Part shown: positions 13,925 through 32,452 of the stretch, piece by piece
Layout of the letters: each line of letters begins with the position of its first letter
Numbering within the stretch: position 1 is the first letter of the stretch
Source: a virus
DNA length: 54,140 bases
Direction: 5' to 3' (one strand)
IMG/VR virus record: IMGVR_UViG_3300012920_000052
Span: 1-54,140 of that record
Program-made: the position numbers and the translations under genes
The notes under the pieces: model-generated
Seen by the model: the letters and a program-made list of their open reading frames with translations, nothing else
The model's database searches: none
Told to the model about the DNA's origin: nothing

Positions 13925-16900
13925 CTAAGCGTAATCATTCCCAACGGGCCCTGGGTCTCCCACGATATCGTCATTCGGTGGTGTAATTATTTGAGTGTTA
14001 CTAGAAGTGACGGGTGGATTTGATAACCCTGAAGCTAAATCATCAGTACTATAAGGACTAGGAACTACTTTAAATCCTTTATTTCGTAATACATTATTTA
14101 ATATAGCTTGATTCATATTAGAAATACCTTTTATATTACTGTTTTCTATTTCTTCAAAAATTTGAGCTAGTTTTTTTCTTAAGTTATTACCTAAAGTACC
14201 ACTTAAAGCTTCTTGACTTCTAAAACATGGGCATCTTTTATTTGAAAAGTCGTTATGTCCTTTAACAACTTGTTTCCACATACTAACAGTAACACCTTTT
14301 TCTTTGTTATTAGTAACCTTAGGGTCGTTCACCGTCACATCAATTGGGTTTATTCTTAATCTCATATTCTCATGAGCGGGTATGTCGTCATAATTTTGTT
14401 GTGAAAATGTTAGGTTTGGTTCTAATTCAAATATTTGGGTACCAAATAATAAATAAAGTACTGTCCATTCTAATGTATTTTTTTGTGCTGTAGTTGCGTA
14501 CGTTCCACTACTATCATAAGAACCAATTTTTTGACAATCTGCAATCATAGAAACAGATATAGACTCTTGATTATGTCCTTGGACATGTGCACCGTCTTTA
14601 TTTTCAGGTCTAGCTCCATATAGAGTACCATCTGGTTCATTGTCTCCACCGGCAGCTCCTCTAGAAATTAAATAATGATACCCTATTCCTGCCCAACCTC
14701 TATTTAAATGTTGTGAATTTATATTACCGACAGGGTCTGAACCATAATTTATTCCACCAGTAACATGGATAACCACATATTTTCTAGTTTTACTTCTACC
14801 TGGAAAATATATTTTATTATTTTTCACATTTTCATATTCAGCTCTACCTTCTACGTTAAACCCACCTTCTTCAGCTACCTTTACTTCAGTTTCTTGTTTT
14901 TTCTTTACTCTACTTATTAATTTTTTATTAAGTTTAGCGACTACGTTTTGGATATCTGGTAATTTATGGAATGGGACTCTAACTCCAGTAAAAGTTGTTG
15001 TCATTGTATTTGGTTGTATCGTATGTTCAACATCCAAAATTAAATAAGGTCCATTAAACATAGGTACATTTCTTAATGTAAAGTACATTGTAGGTTGTAT
15101 ACATACGTTACCTAAAGAGGTTACTTTACAGGTATATGAACGTGATTTATATATATTAAAAAGACTTAAACCTTGAGTCATAATACTATTATCATTAGCA
15201 GATTGTGCCATCATTTCTGTAACAACAAAAGATTCACTAGTATTTTTAAATTGACTTTGGTCTAAACTTATACCTTTAAACATTCCCTGAGATTGAATTG
15301 CAAAATCTACTGCAAAAGACATAACTTTATTACATCTGGCTGGGTCATTACAATTACTAAATAATGGATTTTCAGAAGTCCTACCCAACATAAATGAGTC
15401 ATTATTAAATCTTGATTGGGGTCCTAGGTCGGACAATTGGGTTGATGGTGGTCCTACATATTGACAAACAAACTTTGGGGAAGAGTCTAGGAAATCAACT
15501 TCTAAATGGGTACCGAATAGTGCATTAGCTTCATCTTGTGTACTAAATTTAGGAATAGGTGTGTTAGTATTAGAAGCTATACCATAAAAATTAATATAAC
15601 TAGGCATTCCATAAAAATTAAAATAATTACCTTGTAATAAAGTACCTATAATAGTTAATAGGGAAGCGTTCGCATTTTGAGGGTTAGTAAAGTTTTTAAT
15701 TGCGTCTGTATCTAATATAGCTAAATCTCCAATATCTCTATTTGCAACGTCTAAAAATAAAAAATCTTTAAATATAAACTTTGAACCAAAATCTTCTCCA
15801 GATATCCATTTATCGTTTAGTGTTTTAAAAACCATGTACTGTTCCAATTTGTTTTCATCCGATTGATAAGCAGACTGATTTTGAAATTCTTCTACTTCAC
15901 CAGAAACAGTAGTGGGTAAATCTTTTTTTAATCTTAGAAAAAGTTGCGTTAGGTACTCACTTTTTAAATTACTATAATTGTCGATAATTTGATTAAATAT
16001 TTTACCTTTAAATTCTGTTACGTCAACTGGTTGGTTGGGTCCTGAAACAATCCTTTCAGTTACATACATTCTTATAACTTTACGTAATAATTTTATGTTA
16101 GAAGAGGTGAAAGCTATATTATTTTCTATGAAGAAATCAGTAACATAATTACCCAAATCTCCATATATTAAATCTGTTGTTTGGCCAGACAAGACTGGTG
16201 AATAAAACCCTACCTCCAATTGTAGTGTTTTCCATTCGTCTGGAAAACTCGTTTGGGAATCTAGAAGGGTAAGATTAGGTGGTAGGTTTCCACTATAGTT
16301 ACCAAAATCATAATAATCAGCACCGTCCAATTGTAAAAATGATTTGAATGATTTAATGTTAACATCTTTAGGGTTATAAAAATTAAAGGACAGTTGTCCA
16401 CCCAAAAAGTTTTTCATTATCTGACTTATATTATTAAGTTGTGCCGTATATAAATCATAATTTAAATACTTTACATTAGACATCATACTTTCATCTAATT
16501 GTGATTTTTTTACTTTCATCATTTCTCTGAATAGACTCTGAAAAGTAGTTTCTACATTTCCTAATATAGTTGAAGTTGTAGCTGTTGTGTTATATATGTC
16601 GTCTTGGGTGTCTTTTTTAGTAAAGTCCAAAAAGTATCTTTCAAACACATCTAAAATATCTGGAGTGAAAACATCAAATAACTCCTCTATACTAGCATAG
16701 TTACTAGAATCTGTTATTGTGAAAACTGTTTGTTCGTCTATATTTGGGTCTATAACCTTTAGATACTGATTTGGGTTAGGTAGTGTGTTTGTGTTGTGTT
16801 CAAAAAATCCATATCCCGCAGCTCCCCACATAAATCTAGTAGACCCGTTTGGTCCAATAGGATTATTAATTAAATTATTGATGTTTTGTTCTTCAAATTC

Positions 16901-19900
16901 TAATTGTTGGTATTCTAATCCTCCACAAGATGGAAACAGTAGGTATTCGGTTTCTGTATATCCCGAACTAAAAGAACTTCTGTTTATATCTAAATAGGAA
17001 TACCAGAAATTACAAGTAGTTTCACCTGAAGGGGAAGAAAAAGATAAACTTTCTAATTGGTTTATAAATAAATCTTTATTATCTATTTTAAGGTTTATCT
17101 CACTAGAAGATATGTCGGCACCTGTTATATTTAAACTATTATATAATAGTTCCTCACCAGTAATAAAATAATAAATATAATTATTTAATTCTGGGTAGAA
17201 CCCTAAATTAATTGTGTTTTGATTTTGTCCATTATTGTATTGTGCAGCAAAATCAATAGGCACTATAGTAGTACCTGAGGTTGTTGCACTTATTCCAATA
17301 TTTAAATTATAAATGTGATTTGTACCATTAGAATTATTAAAATACTCAGCAGAATCAAAATTTTCCCAAACGGATGATAAAAAATCTGTACCGTTCTCTA
17401 TGTTTTCTTTATAACGATGCCATATACTTCCATATTTTAATATCCACGCATATGGTAAACTATGGACCGCAGAAACCTGGTTTAATATTTTACCTAAATA
17501 GTCCCCATAAACGTTAACATAATCTTGTTCTACTTTTAAACTTTTCTCTCTAAGGGTAGGGAGTGGCAACGAATTTAAAAATAAATAAGCTGCTGCTTTA
17601 TAAACATGTTCATCACCAATATTATTAGTGTCTAAGGTTATTTGATTTTTTATTCCTTGTACAAAAGCGTTTGTAAAATAAGGTGTGTTTAATAGTGAAG
17701 TTATTTGTTTATTGTAAGTATTACCACTGTAGTTATCACCATAGTTAATTTCACCTTCGGTTAATAAAAAGTTACTATTTTTAGGGTAGGTATTTGTTAT
17801 ATTTTCAAAATATGTTTTCCAACTAAGCGCTTGATTTTGTAGATTACCTTCTCTCAATAATTTAACGTTAATCAGTTGTGTAAGTGTTCTATAAGACCAG
17901 TTACCATCAGTATAAAATTGTATGTTAGGTATGATTCCTGATAACGTTTGGTTAGGTATGTCTGAAGAATACGTTTGTTGATTTGGTAGATACACTACTC
18001 CGTCAGCAATATGGTTTAAATTTTCATATGACGCGATACTTTGTCCCCCAGCTAAGTTATTAGAAACCCAACTATTGTTAGGATTACCATCAAAATGTGA
18101 AAAAGGATAAGTCTCTATTATATTAGGGATAGCAGGTTGTATTAGAGCTTCTTTTAAAAATCCAACAGAATCATCCACATTAATTTCGTTTAACTGATAA
18201 TTTAAACCGTTAAATTTAACTTTGCTCATTATAGCAAACCTATTATCGTTAATTTTAGTTCTGATATATTCTGTACTGTATTCATCCCTAACTAAAAGTT
18301 GATAATTATTTAATGGAGATATGGCTTGTAAAAATTCTCGAAATGAGGTTGCTGTGTAGTTTTGGTTTTTAAGTTGTTCACTTAGTGAAAAATCACCAAC
18401 TAAAATATCGGTAAGGTTAGCTGATTCTAAATTACCAAAAGATTTATATGTTGTTCTTGCATTTTTAAATTCTAATCTAGTAGCTAACCCAGAAAAGTTA
18501 GTAAAAATAGTACTTCTATCCCACATTTCATATAAAAATGGAACTTTACTTTTATTAGTATATACTGTTTGTTCATCTATGAAAAAAGAAGTTACTGGTA
18601 ACCAGGGTTCTCCCACATTGTCTGTAAAAAAATCAGGTTTACTGTCTCCTTTAATTAAAGCTTGTCCCTTAAAAAATTCTTCAACAAATGAAACCTCTGG
18701 CCATAAAAGTGCATCAAAAGCTTTGGTTTGGGAAAGAGCTCCTATAGCTCCTGGATAAGTACTAACATATGAAGTTGCCCCATTTTCTTCTTTTGTGATG
18801 AAGTAATGTGGCCAAGGATATATAAAATTATCTTCTGGTAATTCTGTATTGGTGCTGGCTTGACCTGGTCCTTTGACCGCGTTTAACCTACGTGGGTCAT
18901 TTCTTACACTAAAAGAATCACGATGTGTTTCATCCATTAAACGTAAAAAAGTGTCGGCGTGTGCTATTAAAATTGCGAATATATTTCTAACACTAGGTTT
19001 AAAACCTAAAATATCAATTACCAATCCATTTACAATATCAGTTAAATTTTTTTCAATAATGTTTCTTTTAGTGTCAAAAGAAGATATTATTTTACCTATT
19101 TTTTCTTCAAACAAATTTGGTCCACCAGAAAAAACAAACCATTTATCTGTATTTTTAGGGTCTACTTTACCTTCGTTTATTAATGAAAGAGGTAATGCTG
19201 GTGATATATTAATATCTTGTACTGTTATATTTACTGGAATTTTTTTAGGTCCAATACTACCAAATGTAGTATTTTGATTTAGTTGTTTATTAAAGTTAGT
19301 AATTATATCTTCTAATCTTTTAACAGCGTCTTTTTCTTTTTGACCTCCGTCTCTATATGTCTCTTTTAATCTGTAATATGTGATTCCTTTAGAGTCCGTT
19401 ACTGGACCTTGTGGTGACGTTATATCTGTATTACAATAAGTTGCTCTCCACCCACCATTAGCCAAAATAGATTTACGGTATCGGTCACTAACTCTATCAT
19501 ATTCTTCTATGTGGTCTAATTGTTGTAAATTGTATGAACTTAAAGCTTTTTGTAATTCGTCCTCTAAGTTGGTTACTTTGGATACCAATTCATCTATTGT
19601 TATGTCTGGTAATGAAGGAGTAACCAGACCTAATGATTTATAGTTTTCGTAAACATTTGTTAAGGTTTCTCTTCCTTTACTTGTTATAAATTTTTGTTCT
19701 TTATTATTATTTTGACGGTCACTTACCGTATACTGTCTAGTAAACATATAAGGAGCTATCCTTAATTCTTGTAATGTTAAATCAGCTAATAAAGCTACTA
19801 CCCTCCCTTTGAATGAACAGGTTACTGTATAATTTCCACTACTCCCATCAAAAGAAGCGTTAAATTTTTCCATCATTAGTTGATACTGAACTGCCTTTCC

Positions 19901-20500
19901 GTAATACCCTTTAAGTGTTAATTTAAATAATGGGTAAGGTAGTTGAAAAAATGCAGCGTATGGAGAATTAGCTCCTTGTTCAAATAAAGTTTGGCCCCTA
20001 ACATCTACAAAAGTTATATTTACTATTGGTGTGAAAGCTTTGTTTATGGTTACTGAAATATTCTCAATACCAAAAGATTCGTTATCTGTTTTATTTGTGA
20101 TTTTTTCTCTTAATAGTGAATTACCGTTAGCGTCTATCGTATTAATAAAACTTTTTTGATTAAGTGGTCCGTTTGGTGTCCTAAATCCTTTCCCTGTTTG
20201 GGTGTCTGTCCAATCAGTAGTAAAATAGTCTTTACCACTTGGTTTAAGAAAATTTATTTCACCTTCAAAAACATCAACAAAAGACTGAGGAGTTTCATTT
20301 TCCACACCGGCACCACTAATTAATTTACTTCTAGGTACCACTCTGGCTTGTAAATTAGCGTATATGGATAAGTTTTCGTGGTTGACTAACCTATCCTGTG
20401 GTCTTCCTTTTTCAAAAACTTTGTTAGGGTCTACAAGTAGTACGTTATTCTCCGCAAATTCGACTAAGACATTATCTCCATTTGTAATTTCGTCGGCCAT
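13925..20500 (-). CDS. giant tail/baseplate hub protein with C-terminal amidase
   Basis: The 2191-aa protein has a long structural N-terminal part. The first 300 residues contain QLPYPLFKLTLKGYYGKAV, typical of tail hub proteins in this gene order. The part at about residues 1890-2100 is a type-2 (T7 lysozyme/PGRP-like) N-acetylmuramoyl-L-alanine amidase: VVIHVTGG gives the first zinc His, GIGYHYLISRG the Tyr region, KGHND the second His and KRCPCF the zinc Cys. It should locally cleave the cell wall during infection, the role of gp5 lysozyme in T4. It lies directly downstream of the gp53-like gene. I infer the hub assignment from size and position; the amidase is clear. Confidence 0.85.
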   Translation of the reverse strand: MADEITNGDNVLVEFAENNVLLVDPNKVFEKGRPQDRLVNHENLSIYANLQARVVPRSKLISGAGVENETPQSFVDVFEGEINFLKPSGKDYFTTDWTDTQTGKGFRTPNGPLNQKSFINTIDANGNSLLREKITNKTDNESFGIENISVTINKAFTPIVNITFVDVRGQTLFEQGANSPYAAFFQLPYPLFKLTLKGYYGKAVQYQLMMEKFNASFDGSSGNYTVTCSFKGRVVALLADLTLQELRIAPYMFTRQYTVSDRQNNNKEQKFITSKGRETLTNVYENYKSLGLVTPSLPDITIDELVSKVTNLEDELQKALSSYNLQQLDHIEEYDRVSDRYRKSILANGGWRATYCNTDITSPQGPVTDSKGITYYRLKETYRDGGQKEKDAVKRLEDIITNFNKQLNQNTTFGSIGPKKIPVNITVQDINISPALPLSLINEGKVDPKNTDKWFVFSGGPNLFEEKIGKIISSFDTKRNIIEKNLTDIVNGLVIDILGFKPSVRNIFAILIAHADTFLRLMDETHRDSFSVRNDPRRLNAVKGPGQASTNTELPEDNFIYPWPHYFITKEENGATSYVSTYPGAIGALSQTKAFDALLWPEVSFVEEFFKGQALIKGDSKPDFFTDNVGEPWLPVTSFFIDEQTVYTNKSKVPFLYEMWDRSTIFTNFSGLATRLEFKNARTTYKSFGNLESANLTDILVGDFSLSEQLKNQNYTATSFREFLQAISPLNNYQLLVRDEYSTEYIRTKINDNRFAIMSKVKFNGLNYQLNEINVDDSVGFLKEALIQPAIPNIIETYPFSHFDGNPNNSWVSNNLAGGQSIASYENLNHIADGVVYLPNQQTYSSDIPNQTLSGIIPNIQFYTDGNWSYRTLTQLINVKLLREGNLQNQALSWKTYFENITNTYPKNSNFLLTEGEINYGDNYSGNTYNKQITSLLNTPYFTNAFVQGIKNQITLDTNNIGDEHVYKAAAYLFLNSLPLPTLREKSLKVEQDYVNVYGDYLGKILNQVSAVHSLPYAWILKYGSIWHRYKENIENGTDFLSSVWENFDSAEYFNNSNGTNHIYNLNIGISATTSGTTIVPIDFAAQYNNGQNQNTINLGFYPELNNYIYYFITGEELLYNSLNITGADISSSEINLKIDNKDLFINQLESLSFSSPSGETTCNFWYSYLDINRSSFSSGYTETEYLLFPSCGGLEYQQLEFEEQNINNLINNPIGPNGSTRFMWGAAGYGFFEHNTNTLPNPNQYLKVIDPNIDEQTVFTITDSSNYASIEELFDVFTPDILDVFERYFLDFTKKDTQDDIYNTTATTSTILGNVETTFQSLFREMMKVKKSQLDESMMSNVKYLNYDLYTAQLNNISQIMKNFLGGQLSFNFYNPKDVNIKSFKSFLQLDGADYYDFGNYSGNLPPNLTLLDSQTSFPDEWKTLQLEVGFYSPVLSGQTTDLIYGDLGNYVTDFFIENNIAFTSSNIKLLRKVIRMYVTERIVSGPNQPVDVTEFKGKIFNQIIDNYSNLKSEYLTQLFLRLKKDLPTTVSGEVEEFQNQSAYQSDENKLEQYMVFKTLNDKWISGEDFGSKFIFKDFLFLDVANRDIGDLAILDTDAIKNFTNPQNANASLLTIIGTLLQGNYFNFYGMPSYINFYGIASNTNTPIPKFSTQDEANALFGTHLEVDFLDSSPKFVCQYVGPPSTQLSDLGPQSRFNNDSFMLGRTSENPLFSNCNDPARCNKVMSFAVDFAIQSQGMFKGISLDQSQFKNTSESFVVTEMMAQSANDNSIMTQGLSLFNIYKSRSYTCKVTSLGNVCIQPTMYFTLRNVPMFNGPYLILDVEHTIQPNTMTTTFTGVRVPFHKLPDIQNVVAKLNKKLISRVKKKQETEVKVAEEGGFNVEGRAEYENVKNNKIYFPGRSKTRKYVVIHVTGGINYGSDPVGNINSQHLNRGWAGIGYHYLISRGAAGGDNEPDGTLYGARPENKDGAHVQGHNQESISVSMIADCQKIGSYDSSGTYATTAQKNTLEWTVLYLLFGTQIFELEPNLTFSQQNYDDIPAHENMRLRINPIDVTVNDPKVTNNKEKGVTVSMWKQVVKGHNDFSNKRCPCFRSQEALSGTLGNNLRKKLAQIFEEIENSNIKGISNMNQAILNNVLRNKGFKVVPSPYSTDDLASGLSNPPVTSSNTQIITPPNDDIVGDPGPVGNDYA

Positions 20501-26167: not shown

Positions 26168-28270
26168 TTAGGCAAAAGGACTGTTCATTTCATTTATTCC
26201 ACCAGGTGCAGTTTTAGTACTAATTGACGCTATCGCTTCTTTAAGTACAATAGCGTTGGTTTGGTTTGAGAATATAGCGTCAACTATTTCTCTACCACTC
26301 ATTTTACCTAAATTTCTACCGTCTAATTTAAGGTCTATACTTCCTTCTATTTTATTTGTGTTTAAGGTTATTGTTTGATTTGTAGCTGTTGACGTGTTTA
26401 AGGCTCCCATATTTGGAGTAGTAGCACCCGCGGTTAAGTCTACCCCTATCACAGTGTCGTTACGTGAGGGTTTAATTAACGCTCCTTTGGTTGTTATAAC
26501 ACCAGCGGTTTGCCCTTGACCTAACATGAAATCTTCCGCGTCTCTTGAATATTCATCACTGAATTTGTCTTTAAATATATTCTGAAATAACGTATCCACT
26601 GTACCACCTCCACCAAACACCCCCATTAGGGTCATATCTATTCCATCACCAATCATAGTACCAATACTTTTCCAATCAATGGGGTTGGTAGTACTATTAT
26701 TACCCATAAACACACCGTTCATTCCCATAAACATATAGTCTTTAAGAGTACTACCCATCTTATGTATTGCACCGTCATTTATCATTCCTGGAACATCAGC
26801 ACCTGGTTGTTTACCCAGTGCTTGTGTCAATGGTTTCCCAACATATTCTTGTGCACCGGCTGGGTCTAATGTGTCTAGTGCAATATCAAATCCTTTTGTT
26901 GCTATAGCGTGAAGTGACCTATTCATAGACTCTAATACTGTAGTCTGTTCCAACATTATGTCTTTTTCAGTCAATTTATCTTGTTGTTCTTTTAGTCTTG
27001 CGTCTTCTTGTAGTTGTTTCATGTCATCAGGTGTTAACATGTCCACATTTTTCATTTCACCATCTACCTGTACTTGGTATCTTCCACCCTTACCCATCTG
27101 AGCAATACTAGCGATATAATCACCAACACCAGAATCTTCCATTTCTTTAGAAAAAGCTGAAAAGTTCATTTGAGTCATTACCGCGTCAAACTTACCTTGA
27201 AGTTTAATCATTTCAGCAAACTCTTCTTTAGACATTCCTAGAGTTTCCGCCATAGCTCTCATTTGTCTTTGAGCTGTAGGTGGGATACTCATTTCACCAG
27301 TTTCCTTATTAAACACAACAAGGTCTTTTCCTGCGTTAACAAGAGCGTCCTGTAGTCCTGCAACATCGTTCGTTGCCATGTACATTAACTTAAATGGGTC
27401 AGCTAAATCACCAACAGCACCACCAATAACTTGTAAATTTGCTGCTAATTCTACTGCACCTTCTGGGTCCATGACTTTTTCAGCAAGAGCGGCTGTAGTA
27501 GACATACTTAAGCCCAATCTTTGTGCTTGGGCTGCCATTTTAGCAAAACCTTTAACTCCATCTGCAAAGTTATAGGTGTTCATCATATCCATATTGTCGG
27601 CTATGATTTCCATGAATCTATCCATGTTAACACCCATATTTCTGGCTACTTCAGCCATTTCATTTCCTTTGTCTATAGCACCGTCAATTCCGATACCCAT
27701 CATTTCAAATTGTTTGACCATTTGGGTTACGTCATATAAACTAACGTTCATAGCTTCAGAAAATATAGCAATTCTTTCAATGTCATTGTCATCAAAAGAA
27801 ATATTTGTACCCATTGTTTTACTTAACTGAGATACGGTTTCTAATAACTTATCCATCGAAACACCATATAATGCCGCTTCCACACCAGCTTGAGCAATAA
27901 TTTTAACATTTCTACTTTGTAACTCACCGGTTTGACCTAGGTCTTGGACTATTCTTTTCCTAATGACACCCTCCTTATTTATAAAGTCTACAGCGAGTTG
28001 CATTAAAGTGTTTTGTTTAGTTTGAGCATCGACGGTCTCACTTGTGAGTGCGAGAATGGTCTTTTGTATCTTCATTGCTTCGGCGTCTAATATCATCGTA
28101 GAAGCTTCAGAAGGAGTACTAGAACTAGAATTAGAAGTAGATGCATTTTTCAATCTCTTCGCATTGTCGTATTCTCTTTTTCTACCCGCATCATCTAATT
28201 TGTCCCAGTTCGCTTTTGACATGTTACCCCCGGTCTCGGATACGTACTTCCTATATTGGTCTGGTCTCAT
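26168..28270 (-). CDS. tail tape measure protein
   Basis: The 700-aa protein is long, helical and Ala/Met-rich with many MAEVARNMG-like helical segments and a Gly-rich hydrophobic section (MTLMGVFGGGGTVDTLF) near residues 540-560. It is encoded directly downstream of the tail-assembly-chaperone-like genes and upstream of the hub genes, the standard tape-measure position. It should set tail length and occupy the tube lumen. A TATTTATA octamer lies 17 nt before the ATG. Confidence 0.8.
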   Translation of the reverse strand: MRPDQYRKYVSETGGNMSKANWDKLDDAGRKREYDNAKRLKNASTSNSSSSTPSEASTMILDAEAMKIQKTILALTSETVDAQTKQNTLMQLAVDFINKEGVIRKRIVQDLGQTGELQSRNVKIIAQAGVEAALYGVSMDKLLETVSQLSKTMGTNISFDDNDIERIAIFSEAMNVSLYDVTQMVKQFEMMGIGIDGAIDKGNEMAEVARNMGVNMDRFMEIIADNMDMMNTYNFADGVKGFAKMAAQAQRLGLSMSTTAALAEKVMDPEGAVELAANLQVIGGAVGDLADPFKLMYMATNDVAGLQDALVNAGKDLVVFNKETGEMSIPPTAQRQMRAMAETLGMSKEEFAEMIKLQGKFDAVMTQMNFSAFSKEMEDSGVGDYIASIAQMGKGGRYQVQVDGEMKNVDMLTPDDMKQLQEDARLKEQQDKLTEKDIMLEQTTVLESMNRSLHAIATKGFDIALDTLDPAGAQEYVGKPLTQALGKQPGADVPGMINDGAIHKMGSTLKDYMFMGMNGVFMGNNSTTNPIDWKSIGTMIGDGIDMTLMGVFGGGGTVDTLFQNIFKDKFSDEYSRDAEDFMLGQGQTAGVITTKGALIKPSRNDTVIGVDLTAGATTPNMGALNTSTATNQTITLNTNKIEGSIDLKLDGRNLGKMSGREIVDAIFSNQTNAIVLKEAIASISTKTAPGGINEMNSPFA

Positions 28271-28310: not shown

Positions 28311-28529
28311 TTAACGTTGTTGATTGTTTTTGGCTTTGTCTATCTCTTCTTTTTTCTTTTCATATTCTTGAATAAGTTTGCCTAGATAATATCTTCGTTC
28401 GTATATAGGCATACGAATTAGGTTTTCATGAGAAAAATTTGCGAATTTTACAAGATAATAGATTTCGTCGAGCACGCTCTGCCTGTAATCCGAAGAAAGG
28501 ACGAAAAAAGTGAGCACCAAGGACAACAT
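28311..28529 (-). CDS. downstream frame of tail assembly chaperone (frameshift product or separate ORF)
   Basis: The 72-aa frame overlaps the 3' end of the gp26/gp51-like gene by about 100 nt in the +1 frame. Its conserved-looking part (SVLDEIYYLVKFANFSHENL, then MPIYERRYYLGKLI) is like the C-terminal segment that follows the main domain in single-frame T4 baseplate/assembly proteins. Two routes are visible: a +1 slip at TTTTTTC (28509-28503), or initiation at the ATG at 28529, which has an unusually good AGGAGGT (28544-28538) 8 nt upstream in a genome where Shine-Dalgarno sequences are rare. An in-frame stop lies three codons before that ATG. A true or sequencing indel is the third option. 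Confidence 0.7.
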   Translation of the reverse strand: MLSLVLTFFVLSSDYRQSVLDEIYYLVKFANFSHENLIRMPIYERRYYLGKLIQEYEKKKEEIDKAKNNQQR

Positions 28530-29244
28530 AAGTTGTTACCTCCTCTCCTGACGGTGCTATTGTGGTAATTTTTAAATCTAACCCAGGTTCATTAGTTTTT
28601 ACATATTTTCTAAATTCCTGTGAATCTTTTATTGGCATTCCTTGAATCATTTGAGCTAAAGCTCCTTTATCCCTTTCACCTTCTATTTCTTGAACTAATA
28701 ATTCTATCTTTTTAGTTATTTTTGGAGCTACTGTGCCTTTATAAGACTCATCTAAAGTTTCTAACTCTTTTTCTTGTTGTGAATTAAGAAATTTAAACTT
28801 TACCTTTTTTTGTGTTAATGGTAAAACATATTCAAACTCACCCTTTTCATCCGCGACTAGGTTAAACTCTTTCATAGTCACATTACTTAAGTCGTGTACA
28901 TATTCAAACTGTTTGTTTGTTTTTGGGTCTGTTAAATTAAAAGTATAAGTAGGTCCAAATGAAGTGTTTCTAAGGAAAATTAGAACCGCTTGTTTATCAC
29001 ATTCCAACATTTCTTCTATTTTAATGTCACCACCAATTATTTTTCTTCTTAACAGTTCATCAATTAAATTTCCTGATTGAGCAAGGTTAGGTGAACTTAA
29101 TAGGTTTTCGTCTGCAGCTGTTAAATAAGTCACCTTAACTTTATCTATAGGTTTACTATAAAACATACCTTTAGATGGTAAGGATACTAAATCATACGGT
29201 ATGTTTGCCTGTGATGGGTCTGAATATTGTTGAGTTGGGTCCAT
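28426..29244 (-). CDS. tail/baseplate assembly protein, gp26/gp51-like
   Basis: The 272-aa protein has the T4 baseplate-protein family pattern: YDLVSLPSKGMFYSKPID, then VTYLTAADENLLSSPN, then IDELLRRKII, as in T4 gp26 and gp51. By position just upstream of the tape measure it may also act as the tail assembly chaperone. Its last about 30 residues (after HFFRPFFG) become basic and unlike the family. In the +1 frame a more family-like C-terminus continues, so this stop may not be the natural end of the whole product. No clear octamer lies near the start; a weak GATTTATA is 36 nt upstream. Confidence 0.8.
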   Translation of the reverse strand: MDPTQQYSDPSQANIPYDLVSLPSKGMFYSKPIDKVKVTYLTAADENLLSSPNLAQSGNLIDELLRRKIIGGDIKIEEMLECDKQAVLIFLRNTSFGPTYTFNLTDPKTNKQFEYVHDLSNVTMKEFNLVADEKGEFEYVLPLTQKKVKFKFLNSQQEKELETLDESYKGTVAPKITKKIELLVQEIEGERDKGALAQMIQGMPIKDSQEFRKYVKTNEPGLDLKITTIAPSGEEVTTYVVLGAHFFRPFFGLQAERARRNLLSCKIRKFFS

Positions 29245-29304: not shown

Positions 29305-29934
29305 ATGAAGAAAAACTTATCTATACGTAATATAACCAAAGAACAAAGTAAGTATATACTTAAATCTCATCATTATTTATCAAAAGTAAATAAAGGTTTT
29401 AGGTCAGGTTTTAATTTTGGTTTATTTGAAGATGAAAAACTTATTGGTGTTTGTATTTTCCATAGTCCTTCAGTTCCAGAAACAGTAAAAGGTTGTTTTG
29501 GTTTGTTAAGAAATGAACAACAGGGAATATATGAGTTAGGAAGGTTATGTTTAATACCTGAATCTGTACAAAAAAACTTACTGTCTTGGTTTGTATCTAA
29601 AAGTATTAAGTTACTTAAAAAACAAACTACTGTTCGTTCTATTTTATCTTATGCCGATTCTTCTTTACATACTGGATTTATCTATCAAGCTACTAATTTC
29701 AAATATTATGGTTTAACTTCACCTAAAAAAGACTTTTGGTTCGAACTAGAGGATGGTTCTTTCGTTAAACATCAAAGAGGTCCTGTAAAAGGAAAGAAGG
29801 GTGAGTGGAGACCTCGTGAACGTAAGCACAGATACTTATTAGTCTTCGACGAATCTTTAAAGTGTTTGTGGGAGGAAAAACCATATCCTAAAGAAAAAAA
29901 CAAAGCTCCATTAAACAAAAAACCCACAACATAG
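29305..29934 (+). CDS. Mom-like DNA-modification acyltransferase
   Basis: The 209-aa protein resembles the Mu Mom family of GNAT-fold enzymes that modify adenines in phage DNA and protect it from restriction. The family-like features are an early HHYLSK, GFNFGLFEDEKLIGVCIF, a YELGRLCL strand and, most tellingly, SYADSSLHTGFIYQATNFKY (about residues 114-133), close to the conserved Mom segment ending GYIYQATNWKY. The basic C-terminal region includes RERKHRYLLVF. It is a lone plus-strand gene among minus-strand tail genes, with its own host-type promoter, which fits expression before packaging. The exact modification cannot be read from sequence. Confidence 0.75.
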   Translation: MKKNLSIRNITKEQSKYILKSHHYLSKVNKGFRSGFNFGLFEDEKLIGVCIFHSPSVPETVKGCFGLLRNEQQGIYELGRLCLIPESVQKNLLSWFVSKSIKLLKKQTTVRSILSYADSSLHTGFIYQATNFKYYGLTSPKKDFWFELEDGSFVKHQRGPVKGKKGEWRPRERKHRYLLVFDESLKCLWEEKPYPKEKNKAPLNKKPTT

Positions 29935-29965: not shown

Positions 29966-30454
29966 TTAGTATACCAAAATACATCTATCTGGTCTTAGTG
30001 TTGCTGATATAGTTGCGATACCGTCATCACTATATCCTAGACTATCAAAGTTAACATCAGTTAAGAATGTTCCTTGTAGTATCCATTTCTCAACAACTAC
30101 ACCTGTAGGGTCTAACATTTCTAAATCAATGTCTTTCTTATATCCTGCAGCGTATCCCATTCTACCTGTTACTGATTCTGCGTGTAATCTAACCCATTCC
30201 ATCAATGCTTGTGAAGCAGAAGGACCGATAGGGTCTCTAAATGTAACACTAATCGTATTCCAAGTAAATCTACCTGCAACATAAGTAGATGTGTTTAAAA
30301 ATGGAATCTCTACAGAATTAATGTTAACTGTTGGTCTAGAAGTACTTTCCACATACCACTCGTTAATTCCTAAAGATGAAGGAAACCTCAAGATAAACCT
30401 ATTCTTCTTTTTAGGTTCATACGGTATGGGCATTTTCATTAATAAATCAGCCAT
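29966..30454 (-). CDS. 19: tail tube protein gp19-like
   Basis: The 162-aa protein matches the T4 gp19/Hcp-like tube fold: FILRFPSSLGINEWYVESTS, then VNINSVEIPFLNTSTYVAGR, FTWNTISVTFRDP, and a final DDGIATISATLRPD strand. It forms the inner tube of the contractile tail. It has a TATTTATT octamer 33 nt upstream, a longer leader than most late genes and similar to that of the sheath gene, and its own terminator. Confidence 0.92.
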   Translation of the reverse strand: MADLLMKMPIPYEPKKKNRFILRFPSSLGINEWYVESTSRPTVNINSVEIPFLNTSTYVAGRFTWNTISVTFRDPIGPSASQALMEWVRLHAESVTGRMGYAAGYKKDIDLEMLDPTGVVVEKWILQGTFLTDVNFDSLGYSDDGIATISATLRPDRCILVY

Positions 30455-30600: not shown

Positions 30601-31269
30601 TTATTCTTTAGCATGCATTACAAATAATTTCTTAGCAAGTTCTTCTGGTAAATCTCTTTTTAATAATCTCATTGCTTTTACATTCTTCATGTCGTCATCT
30701 ATAAAAACTATTTCGTCATACTTTTGTAATAATTTTTCTACGACTTCAGCCTTTTTTTCGTAGTCTGTTTGAGACTCAAGTGTCTTAACTCTTTCAGTAT
30801 CGTTAATAGCGTAAACGTTTTCCCTAGATAATCTATCTCCTATAGGTACTAAATTACCTTTACTATCTTTATACATTAAAAATTCTTTTAATCCGTCAAA
30901 TACGATATCCTCATTAGACCTTGCGGTTAATATTGCAATTTGGTGACCTAACTTTAAATAATCATCCATAACTGATAGGTTAGCTACAATAGGTTCTGCT
31001 TGTTCTATAGATTGTTGTGTCTTTACGGGGTCCATAAAATCCCTATAATCATAATATTCTTTAGTTTCGGGTGTGACGTGTTCTAAACCATATTCATACG
31101 GTGTTAAAGCTACTTCCTGTCCGTCTGTAGGCAAATTTCTATATATGTATACTCCAGTAGGTTTAAGTAGTGTATCATCCACGTCTAAAAGTATTAGACG
31201 ATTAGTTTTAGCTAATTCATTTAAAGGTTGTTCAGTGTACTCCCTAAGAATTCTTCTAATATAGTTCAT
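30601..31269 (-). CDS. HAD-superfamily phosphatase with capsid-targeting-like N-terminus
   Basis: The 222-aa protein starts with an amphipathic stretch MNYIRRILREYTEQP, followed by a HAD domain: motif I LLDVDDTLL (about residues 28-36), motif II region AILTARS (about 121-127), and the acidic motif IV VFIDDDMKNV (about 196-205). It is probably a phosphatase. The short N-terminal helix with an L-R-E triplet resembles the T4 peptide that sends internal proteins into the prohead and is cut after L/I-x-E. A late-type octamer lies 38 nt upstream. It is divergent to the zeta-like kinase gene. Confidence 0.8.
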   Translation of the reverse strand: MNYIRRILREYTEQPLNELAKTNRLILLDVDDTLLKPTGVYIYRNLPTDGQEVALTPYEYGLEHVTPETKEYYDYRDFMDPVKTQQSIEQAEPIVANLSVMDDYLKLGHQIAILTARSNEDIVFDGLKEFLMYKDSKGNLVPIGDRLSRENVYAINDTERVKTLESQTDYEKKAEVVEKLLQKYDEIVFIDDDMKNVKAMRLLKRDLPEELAKKLFVMHAKE

Positions 31270-31365: not shown

Positions 31366-32019
31366 ATGTTACTTAAAGAAATTAGTAAAATTAAAAAGTT
31401 AATGCTTATAGAGTCTAGGGTTGTGGGGTTTGATAACCCACAAGGTAATTTTGTAATTATCGCTGGAGGACCAGGTGCTGGTAAAAGTTTTGTGACTCAA
31501 AATTTTATAGACTTACCAAACTACAAACAATTTAATGTAGACAATTATAGAGTAGCATTAGCTAAAAAAATATGGGGTGACCAGTGGAAAGAAAATATAT
31601 CTACCGATGAGGGTTATCAAAAAATTCTAGATATGTCCTACACAACTTCTGACCCGAGAAATTTAACTATTAGGTTTTTAAAAAACTTTTTGGATACTGA
31701 AAGAAATGAGATGCCTAATATAGTTTATGACGCTGGAGGAGGACAAAGAGAGGTCATGAATGAGGTAATTAACTTAGCTAAAGAAAATGGTTATATCGTA
31801 ACTATAGTTCATGTCGTTACCGACTTAGACAAAGCTTTAGAAAGAAATTTACAAAGAGACCGTAGTTTACCTACTGATATGGTTATAGATTATCATGACA
31901 AAGTTAGAAGGGTGGTTAAAGATTTAATACCTATGGTAGACAATTATTGGATTGTAGATAACACCAAAGACTTACCTTTCGGTGAAAGAGCTACTGGTAG
32001 TATTCACAGAATTAAATAA
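31366..32019 (+). CDS. zeta-toxin-like P-loop kinase
   Basis: From the ATG at 31366 the protein is 217 aa. It carries a Walker A in IAGGPGAGKSFVTQNF (about residues 29-44), a zeta-like QFNVDNYRVAL segment just after it, a VYDAGGG strand and an Arg-rich lid region (DKALERNLQRDRSLP). This is the zeta toxin/polynucleotide-kinase type of P-loop kinase. The N-terminus has a short helix with L-I-E-S, like a prohead-protease site. A start at 31402 is possible and would remove most of that helix. It lies between two HAD phosphatase genes, which suggests a split kinase/phosphatase repair pair. No antitoxin gene is apparent. Confidence 0.75.
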   Translation: MLLKEISKIKKLMLIESRVVGFDNPQGNFVIIAGGPGAGKSFVTQNFIDLPNYKQFNVDNYRVALAKKIWGDQWKENISTDEGYQKILDMSYTTSDPRNLTIRFLKNFLDTERNEMPNIVYDAGGGQREVMNEVINLAKENGYIVTIVHVVTDLDKALERNLQRDRSLPTDMVIDYHDKVRRVVKDLIPMVDNYWIVDNTKDLPFGERATGSIHRIK

Positions 32020-32452
32020 CAACTTTATTTATTTTTAATTCTATTTCTGGAAAAAAGTCCATTGTGTTTTTAACATCATTTATATGTTTATCTTTATCTT
32101 CCCAATACTCTATAGAATCTACACTATTAGTTAGTATTAAATCTTTTACTCGTTTACCTTTAGACCTATCACCATCAACACCAATAATCATCTTGTAGTC
32201 ATCAAACACCAAACCGTGTTCTTCTAATAAAGTTTTTAGTTGTAAGTAAACACCATCAATTCTATTTGTAAGTAAGATAACTTTTGTGTTTTTTTCTTTT
32301 TTACATTCTTTAAACTTTTTTATGGTTTCAAGTATTGGTTCGAATTTCCATTTGTAGATGGAAAGACTTGCTGGTTTATTCATATAGTCGGGGTCTTCAT
32401 CATAAGGGGTTTTGAATAATGTATTATCAAAATCAAAAAGGGCTAATTTCAT
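32012..32452 (-). CDS. HAD-like phosphatase
   Basis: The 146-aa protein opens with HAD motif I (LFDFDNTLF, residues 4-12). It continues with motif II in VILLTNR (about 60-66) and a late acidic YWEDKDKHI motif. It resembles the small HAD domains found in RNA-repair-type proteins. Its 3' end overlaps the convergent kinase gene by 8 nt. It is expressed from a near-perfect Bacteroidota-type promoter, unlike the HAD gene at 30601 that has the late octamer. Confidence 0.75.
   Translation of the reverse strand: MKLALFDFDNTLFKTPYDEDPDYMNKPASLSIYKWKFEPILETIKKFKECKKEKNTKVILLTNRIDGVYLQLKTLLEEHGLVFDDYKMIIGVDGDRSKGKRVKDLILTNSVDSIEYWEDKDKHINDVKNTMDFFPEIELKINKVVI

Follow-up and report, generated by a model that had tools for sequence, protein, structure and literature searches.

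Two overlapping frames at a putative tail chaperone locus

We analysed IMGVR_UViG_3300012920_000052, a virus record of 54,140 bases (hereafter the window, meaning this whole stretch of DNA), in which two minus-strand open reading frames (ORFs) overlap: 29244-28426 (272 aa) and 28529-28311 (72 aa), the latter in +1 relative to the former. We call the first frame G and the conserved part of the second T, and we propose that the two are joined by a programmed ribosomal frameshift. The elements concerned are the following:

28426..29244, minus strand: G, putative short tail assembly chaperone (TAC-N), gp26/PF12322-like, frame 0, 272 aa; identified by PF12322, phrog_150 and its relatives
28503..28509, minus strand: predicted shift site TTT TTT C (TTTTTTC), with a slip from UUU (28506-28504) to UUC (28505-28503); identified by codon conservation across clusters
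28311..28502, minus strand: T, the extension that translation would enter by the +1 shift (VLSSDYRQSVLDEIYYLVKF...NNQQR); identified by the T profile in relatives; G plus T would make GT (TAC-NC), a fusion of 310 aa

G matched PF12322, the T4 gp26 family, with an E-value of 2.1e-8 and 34.6 bits, above the curated cut-off of 24.5, and phrog_150 ('baseplate hub') with an E-value of 1.6e-9. Its family-like sequence ends at HFFRPFFG, around residue 252, and the remainder is an unconserved run-on: frame 0 of most relatives has a TAG directly after HFFRPFF[GA][LV], where the window has CAG, so that frame 0 continues here for 18 codons into unconserved sequence. A preliminary description made from the sequence alone had noticed that frame 0 loses family-like sequence after HFFRPFFG and that the +1 frame continues with a family-like C-terminus, and had offered a programmed frameshift, an internal start behind a Shine-Dalgarno (SD) motif or an indel as explanations. 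Both observations agree with the relatives, which mostly stop at that point in frame 0 and carry a conserved domain in +1; the positions given for the two ORFs, for TTTTTTC (28509-28503), for AGGAGGT (28544-28538) and for the ATG at 28529 were likewise confirmed. Among the three options, the comparisons below favour a +1 frameshift over the other two.

Our evidence for frameshifting is comparative throughout. Scans of viral contigs (the initial IMG/VR relatives and three further scans) and one scan of genome contigs, with only three bacterial contigs among the matches listed in the latter, provided at least 246 non-redundant G genes. We built a T profile iteratively and ran it against the three reading frames around the G stop. 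Among the matches listed, T was recognisable at 240 of 246 G loci, in +1 at 229 and in -1 at 11, and at none of the 240 did it lie in frame 0 or separated from G by a gap. At every one of these loci the T frame overlaps the end of G, and the out-of-frame extension is open across the G stop (240/240). Three of the six loci without a profile match end at a contig edge; the other three show a T-like stretch by eye in a shifted frame, +1 in RM378 and -1 in Atu_ph07 and a deltaproteobacterial contig. The alignment of homologues that the preliminary description had suggested as a check therefore shows two frames, and no uninterrupted single frame, among the 240 loci with T.

The same split occurs in all seventeen IMG/VR relatives with 66-96% identity, whose +1 frame is open and conserved (FFVLSS[DEQ]YRQ.[VM]LDE[IF]YYL.KFA.F...), and at 22-32% identity in Microcystis phage Mel-JY01, Flavobacterium phage immuto, Bacillus phage SP-15, Listeria phage LIS04 and Streptococcus phage GXN1. 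The annotations of these isolates hold G alone, or G and a small hypothetical ORF; the long product is unannotated, and T is missing, truncated or hypothetical.

Proposed slip site and direction of the shift

For statistics on the slip site, we grouped the +1 homologues at 75% identity into 149 clusters. In frame 0, TTT TTT is followed by TGG or CGN (in rare cases TAC or TTC) and next by CCT, a codon explained by the conservation of the +1 frame, which starts at the slip itself: F is followed by G/V/A (FGL/FVL), with Leu in 137 and Tyr at the seventh residue in 116 of the 149 clusters. The 7-mers TTTTTTT (92 clusters) and TTTTTTC (42) account for 134 of 149, and the variants TTTCTTT, TTCTTTC, TTCTTTT, CTTTTTT and TTCCTTT all retain a YUU-Y slip. 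Overall, YUU-Y is found in 147 of 149 clusters (the exceptions being TTTCTAT and TTTTTTA), 3-7 codons before the G stop. Judged from these alignments, conservation of the TTTTTTC site across 149 divergent clusters is far beyond chance.

Two codon choices at the site are free of protein constraint. The second Phe codon is TTT in 143 of 143 cases, TTC being the synonymous alternative (p 3e-17). When Arg follows, it is encoded by CGG 16 times and never by AGG, although the ratio is 3:38 in the same genes (p 7e-19) and the two codons give identical residues in both frames, Arg in frame 0 and Gly in +1. Since re-pairing of the Phe tRNA on UUC is possible only with CGG, and not with AGG, this bias and the invariant TTT point to P-site slippage from UUU to UUY. 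The re-pairing of tRNA-Phe on TTC at TTT-TTT-C, as first suggested for the window, is hence strongly supported.

Three further observations concern the surroundings of the site. Only 8 of 149 clusters have a further T directly before the run, and an Asp codon at that place is GAC in 26 of 27 cases, against a background of 28%; both look as though the run were being prevented from growing longer. A hungry codon was considered and set aside; the excess of CGG/CGC is present but confounded by the +1 frame residue.

The eleven loci with T in -1 (L024, L150, L192, L197-L199, L203, L207, L208, L211 and L224) differ at the corresponding position. In ten, TTT TTC follows a T (AAT TTT TTC in most), forming the classical U UUU UUC heptamer; in the eleventh, L150, AAT TTC gives the heptamer A AAU UUC. 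As read from these sites, one gene family holds both shift directions, each with a matching slip sequence. The G homologue of L189, a contig from a deltaproteobacterial metagenome-assembled genome, ends AAC TTC TTC CTG CCG and has its T-like stretch in -1 without an obvious slip heptamer.

The upstream hairpin and alternatives to slippage

The preliminary description overlooked a predicted RNA hairpin that ends just before the shift site and contains the AGGAGGT:

28513..28558, minus strand: hairpin upstream of the shift site, fold of -15.9 kcal/mol; identified by conservation and covariation in 80 relatives and by exceeding synonymous shuffles
28538..28544, minus strand: AGGAGGT inside the hairpin, confined to the window and its relatives L001 and L002
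28527..28529, minus strand: T-frame ATG, 8 nt downstream of AGGAGGT, conserved no further than L001 and L002

In the window the outer helix pairs 28558-28552 with 28519-28513 (AGCACCG / UGGUGCU) and the inner helix pairs AGGA (28549-28546) with UCCU (28523-28520). Across the family, codon usage deviates sharply from codon -17 up to the shift site, and hairpins with a 3' end between about -13 and -4 relative to the site fold more stably than synonymous shuffles drawn from the same local codon pool. In the CGN group, the real sequences gave -12.2 and the shuffled ones -5.0 kcal/mol at -5, with z of -9.9 and -11.5 for 3' ends at -6 and -5, respectively; non-CGN loci showed a weaker yet clear effect (paired t -5.1). 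No enrichment was seen for hairpins with 3' ends at -30 to -17, and the CGN group avoids them. The hairpin is not restricted to loci with a known host. Downstream structure was slightly enriched in the +1 group and showed no enrichment in the window (z 0.58).

Covariation was examined in an alignment of 80 relatives (A7). The column pair 9-48, consisting of the third codon positions of an Ala/Thr and a Gly codon, had the highest corrected mutual information of all pairs (CG 67, AU 9, GC 2, and 2 broken), and other top pairs (6-51, 25-41, 24-42, 29-37 and 30-36) nest in the same hairpin. The structure so defined comprised 127 double-change cells, compared with 61 after shuffling, and had a covariation score of 0.296, compared with 0.08-0.17 when it was slid along the alignment. 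Mapped on a tree, the 9-48 pair switched between pair types six times or more.

A hairpin near the E site has been found to stimulate +1 and to attenuate -1 shifting in yeast and E. coli extracts, imitating an internal SD duplex (PMC3639245, PMC6321510). Alternatively, frameshifting may be real while the hairpin serves mRNA stability, the hiding of internal starts or a constraint at the protein level. The weaker hairpin consensus in the FFW group would suit this alternative, which we regard as possible but doubtful, because only hairpins with 3' ends between about -13 and -4 relative to the shift site are enriched, third codon positions covary on both arms, and the -1 sites lack upstream enrichment (z about -0.4, n=11, with mononucleotide shuffles, unlike the +1 test).

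Much less probable is that T forms an overlapping gene of its own with a start within G, from the ATG at 28529 behind AGGAGGT in the window and from GTG or TTG in relatives. In the window, L001 and L002, AGGAGGT does precede an in-frame ATG by 8 nt, but neither AGGAGG nor this ATG occurs at any other locus, the ATG being absent in L003-L017. In the stretch that runs from the final stop of the T frame to the T domain, 147 of the 229 +1 loci lack any ATG (93 of 149 after clustering at 75%) and 59 lack ATG, GTG and TTG altogether (35 of 149). An internal start with an SD is thus not supported as the general mechanism. Additionally, an SD core was found at 0 of 37 long ORFs of the window, and Bacteroidia-type ribosomes largely ignore the SD (PMC9976891, PMC8710568). 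A separate start would leave unexplained the conservation of +1 residues from the slip site itself, the TTT/CGG choice and the -1 heptamers.

The preliminary description had called AGGAGGT striking in a genome without SD signals. The absence of such signals holds for the 37 ORFs, and SD-less starts fit, rather than identify, a Bacteroidota-type host. The motif itself is another matter: AGGAGG occurs 10 times in the window, compared with 16 occurrences expected by chance, so that its presence is unremarkable and AGGAGGT is probably incidental. We also rejected an internal SD as a stimulator of the shift, as the strong enrichment of GGG three codons before the site is explained by the G-rich arm of the hairpin; no SD at the position and spacing of prfB was present in the window.

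An equally small probability attaches to a -2 ribosomal slip or transcriptional slippage on the run of six or seven T, in place of +1 ribosomal slippage. A -2 shift reaches the same frame as +1, and such runs can be slippery for RNA polymerase. Conversely, about 12 of the 149 clusters keep the architecture with interrupted runs (TTTCTTT, TTCTTTC, TTCTTTT, TTCCTTT), which permit neither -2 re-pairing nor homopolymer slippage and therefore exclude both for those loci, and the run is rarely extended by a preceding T (8/149). Finally, that a sequencing or assembly indel split one frame has virtually no chance of being right, having nothing in its favour beyond the split itself and being ruled out by the 240 of 240 homologues with T, isolated phages included, that carry T in another frame.

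Proposed mechanism and relation to other tail chaperones

We consider it very probable that a programmed +1 frameshift at UUU UUY, probably aided by the hairpin, yields a short chaperone, G, and a long one, GT. Most ribosomes would read the gp26-like frame and stop soon after FFRPFFG, producing G, and a fraction would slip by +1 with tRNA-Phe on the second UUU of UUU UUU CGU, re-pair on UUC and read on into the helical T domain, producing the GT fusion. The hairpin, ending 4-5 nt or so before the site, probably re-forms at the rear of the ribosome and drives it forward, which would do the work of the SD duplex in the prfB frameshift. Bacteroidia ribosomes sequester their anti-SD (PMC9976891, PMC8710568), and a hairpin would therefore be a sensible substitute there. 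By analogy with lambda, we expect G to coat the tape measure protein and T, within GT, to recruit the tail tube protein. Trans-frame architecture, slip-codon constraint and hairpin conservation are properties of the sequences, from which we infer the slippage, its efficiency and the role of the hairpin.

The annotation as a tail assembly chaperone pair, whose function we infer, draws on the PF12322 match of G and on gene order (sheath, tube, chaperone G/T, tape measure), with the tape measure assigned by position in the window. The neighbours are:

29966..30454, minus strand: tail tube protein upstream of G (phrog_4542, E 1.2e-29; gp19, PF06841)
26168..28270, minus strand: next gene downstream, 700 aa, in the place of the tape measure; assigned by position only

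Neither Pfam nor PHROGs recognised the 700-aa product, but its counterpart carries a tape measure annotation in both Flavobacterium phage immuto and Bacillus phage SP-15. The confidently predicted structure of the GT fusion (pLDDT 91.8, pTM 0.85) models T as three helices, and its matches among the viral models of BFVD are baseplate hub and T4-like hub assembly proteins. A sequence search of the PDB gave no match. DUF6760 (PF20546) remained below its cut-off (best 13.7 and 14.4 bits against 27), and PF20546 had no match in the control genomes.

Several points weigh against the proposed mechanism or the assigned function. Tree-aware tests of individual base pairs lack the number of contrasts needed to reach significance, and no one consensus hairpin emerged when the FFW group was analysed blindly for covariation. 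Rare CGG/CGC codons at the A site could be due to the +1 residue and not to slow decoding, and the ATG with its SD-like motif could add a T-only product in the window and its two close relatives. A Foldseek search of the PDB with the fusion model returned nothing at E 0.001, and the only chain above Z 5 after re-alignment was YqbN (3klu), which we take to be a member of the XkdN-like group, at a modest Z of 5.6. As XkdN-like proteins have been called tail assembly chaperones (PMC11948020), this match nevertheless counts in favour of the assigned function.

The locus resembles lambda G/GT, a short and a frameshifted long product (Levin 1993; Xu 2004, 2013, 2014, as cited in PMC5009743), in that both products would come from one gene beside the tape measure, with a minor C-terminal extension; it shares with it the out-of-frame extension, a conserved slippery sequence shortly before the short ORF stops, and the tube and tape measure flanks. 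It differs from lambda, which shifts by -1, in the proposed +1 shift at UUU UUY, the upstream hairpin and the T4 gp26/gp51-family protein. Tail chaperone genes of Vandenendeviridae and Andersonviridae, also of myoviruses and also proposed by comparative genomics, have a poly-T slip with a -1 shift at GTTTTT and no upstream hairpin described (PMC12846349), unlike the +1 shift with a hairpin proposed here; poly-T -1 signals have been attributed to TAC-N genes of T4-like phages as well (PMC12846349, where Vladimirov 2022 is cited). A closer parallel in direction is the haloarchaeal myovirus HSTV-2, whose tail chaperone gene very likely uses +1 (PMC5009743), a comparison by description only.

With prfB (RF2), our loci would share the +1 P-site slippage from YUU to UUU/UUC, including sites with CUU U, and a stimulating duplex upstream; they differ in having a sense codon (UGG/CGN) and an intramolecular hairpin, where prfB has CUU with a stop codon and an SD-like motif 3 nt upstream. 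Likewise, the known upstream-hairpin stimulators of +1 shifting are placed close to the E site, but are designed or SARS-CoV-derived elements in reporter constructs, and stimulation in the 70S test needed the absence of RF2 at a stop codon (PMC3639245, PMC6321510), unlike the naturally conserved hairpin and +1 site described here.

Like G, T4 gp26 and T4 gp51 match PF12322, in their case along the first 200 residues, and gp51 is about 48 aa longer, with its C-terminal stretch at the position of T. The similarity between the T profile and gp51 219-248 is faint (whole-sequence E 0.04, in a two-sequence search only), and a profile comparison of A6 with gp51 was not significant. T4 makes its short and long forms from two genes and without a frameshift, unlike the single +1 gene here, a contrast that the preliminary description did not draw; to our knowledge, it is cited as an exception among long-tailed phages in not making its tail chaperones by frameshifting. 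Identification of gp26 and gp51 as tail assembly chaperones is credited to Vladimirov, Gautam and Davidson 2022 in PMC10885494, and some T4-like phages are described, in the PRFect paper citing Vladimirov et al. 2022, as having one short and one long fused gene with no frameshift. The T4 gene pair and the +1 gene therefore appear to meet one need in two ways.

That tail chaperone genes use frameshifting is already known. Three features appear to be new: a +1 shift that prevails across a large family related to T4, the conservation of a hairpin upstream of the site, and the switch of direction within one family. In the broadest account, a very widespread T4-like lineage with contractile tails makes its chaperone pair by a +1 shift, powered by the refolding of a hairpin at the ribosome's exit side, which replaces the prfB-type rRNA duplex in the window's likely Bacteroidota-type host; a change of heptamer flipped the direction to -1, and T4 replaced the frameshift with two genes. 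This would be a natural use of a hairpin mechanism so far shown in constructs. We give this whole account even chances.

Under the proposed mechanism, the T4 protein family uses a frameshift, of the unusual +1 type, in hundreds of environmental phages and in phage isolates of Flavobacterium, Microcystis, Bacillus, Listeria and Streptococcus, and the evolution of the two-gene solution of T4 becomes testable. Natural +1 and -1 versions of one gene, with the hairpin tied to +1, offer a system for how mRNA duplexes set the direction of slippage. For the annotated isolates examined, the annotation can be corrected to include the long product and the T part.

Other genes of the window merit mention. 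A Mom-like DNA modification gene (29305-29934, plus strand; PF25680, E 8e-32; phrog_1384, E 1e-40) lies on the opposite strand within the tail module, between the tail tube and tail chaperone genes. The minus-strand gene at 13925-20500 encodes a 2191-aa tail protein with an amidase/endolysin domain at about residues 1890-2015 (phrog_822, E 4e-22). A zeta-toxin-like AAA kinase gene (31366-32019, plus strand) sits in the structural module beside two genes for HAD-type phosphatase-like proteins (30601-31269 and 32012-32452, minus strand), possibly with a role in nucleic acid repair or nucleotide metabolism.
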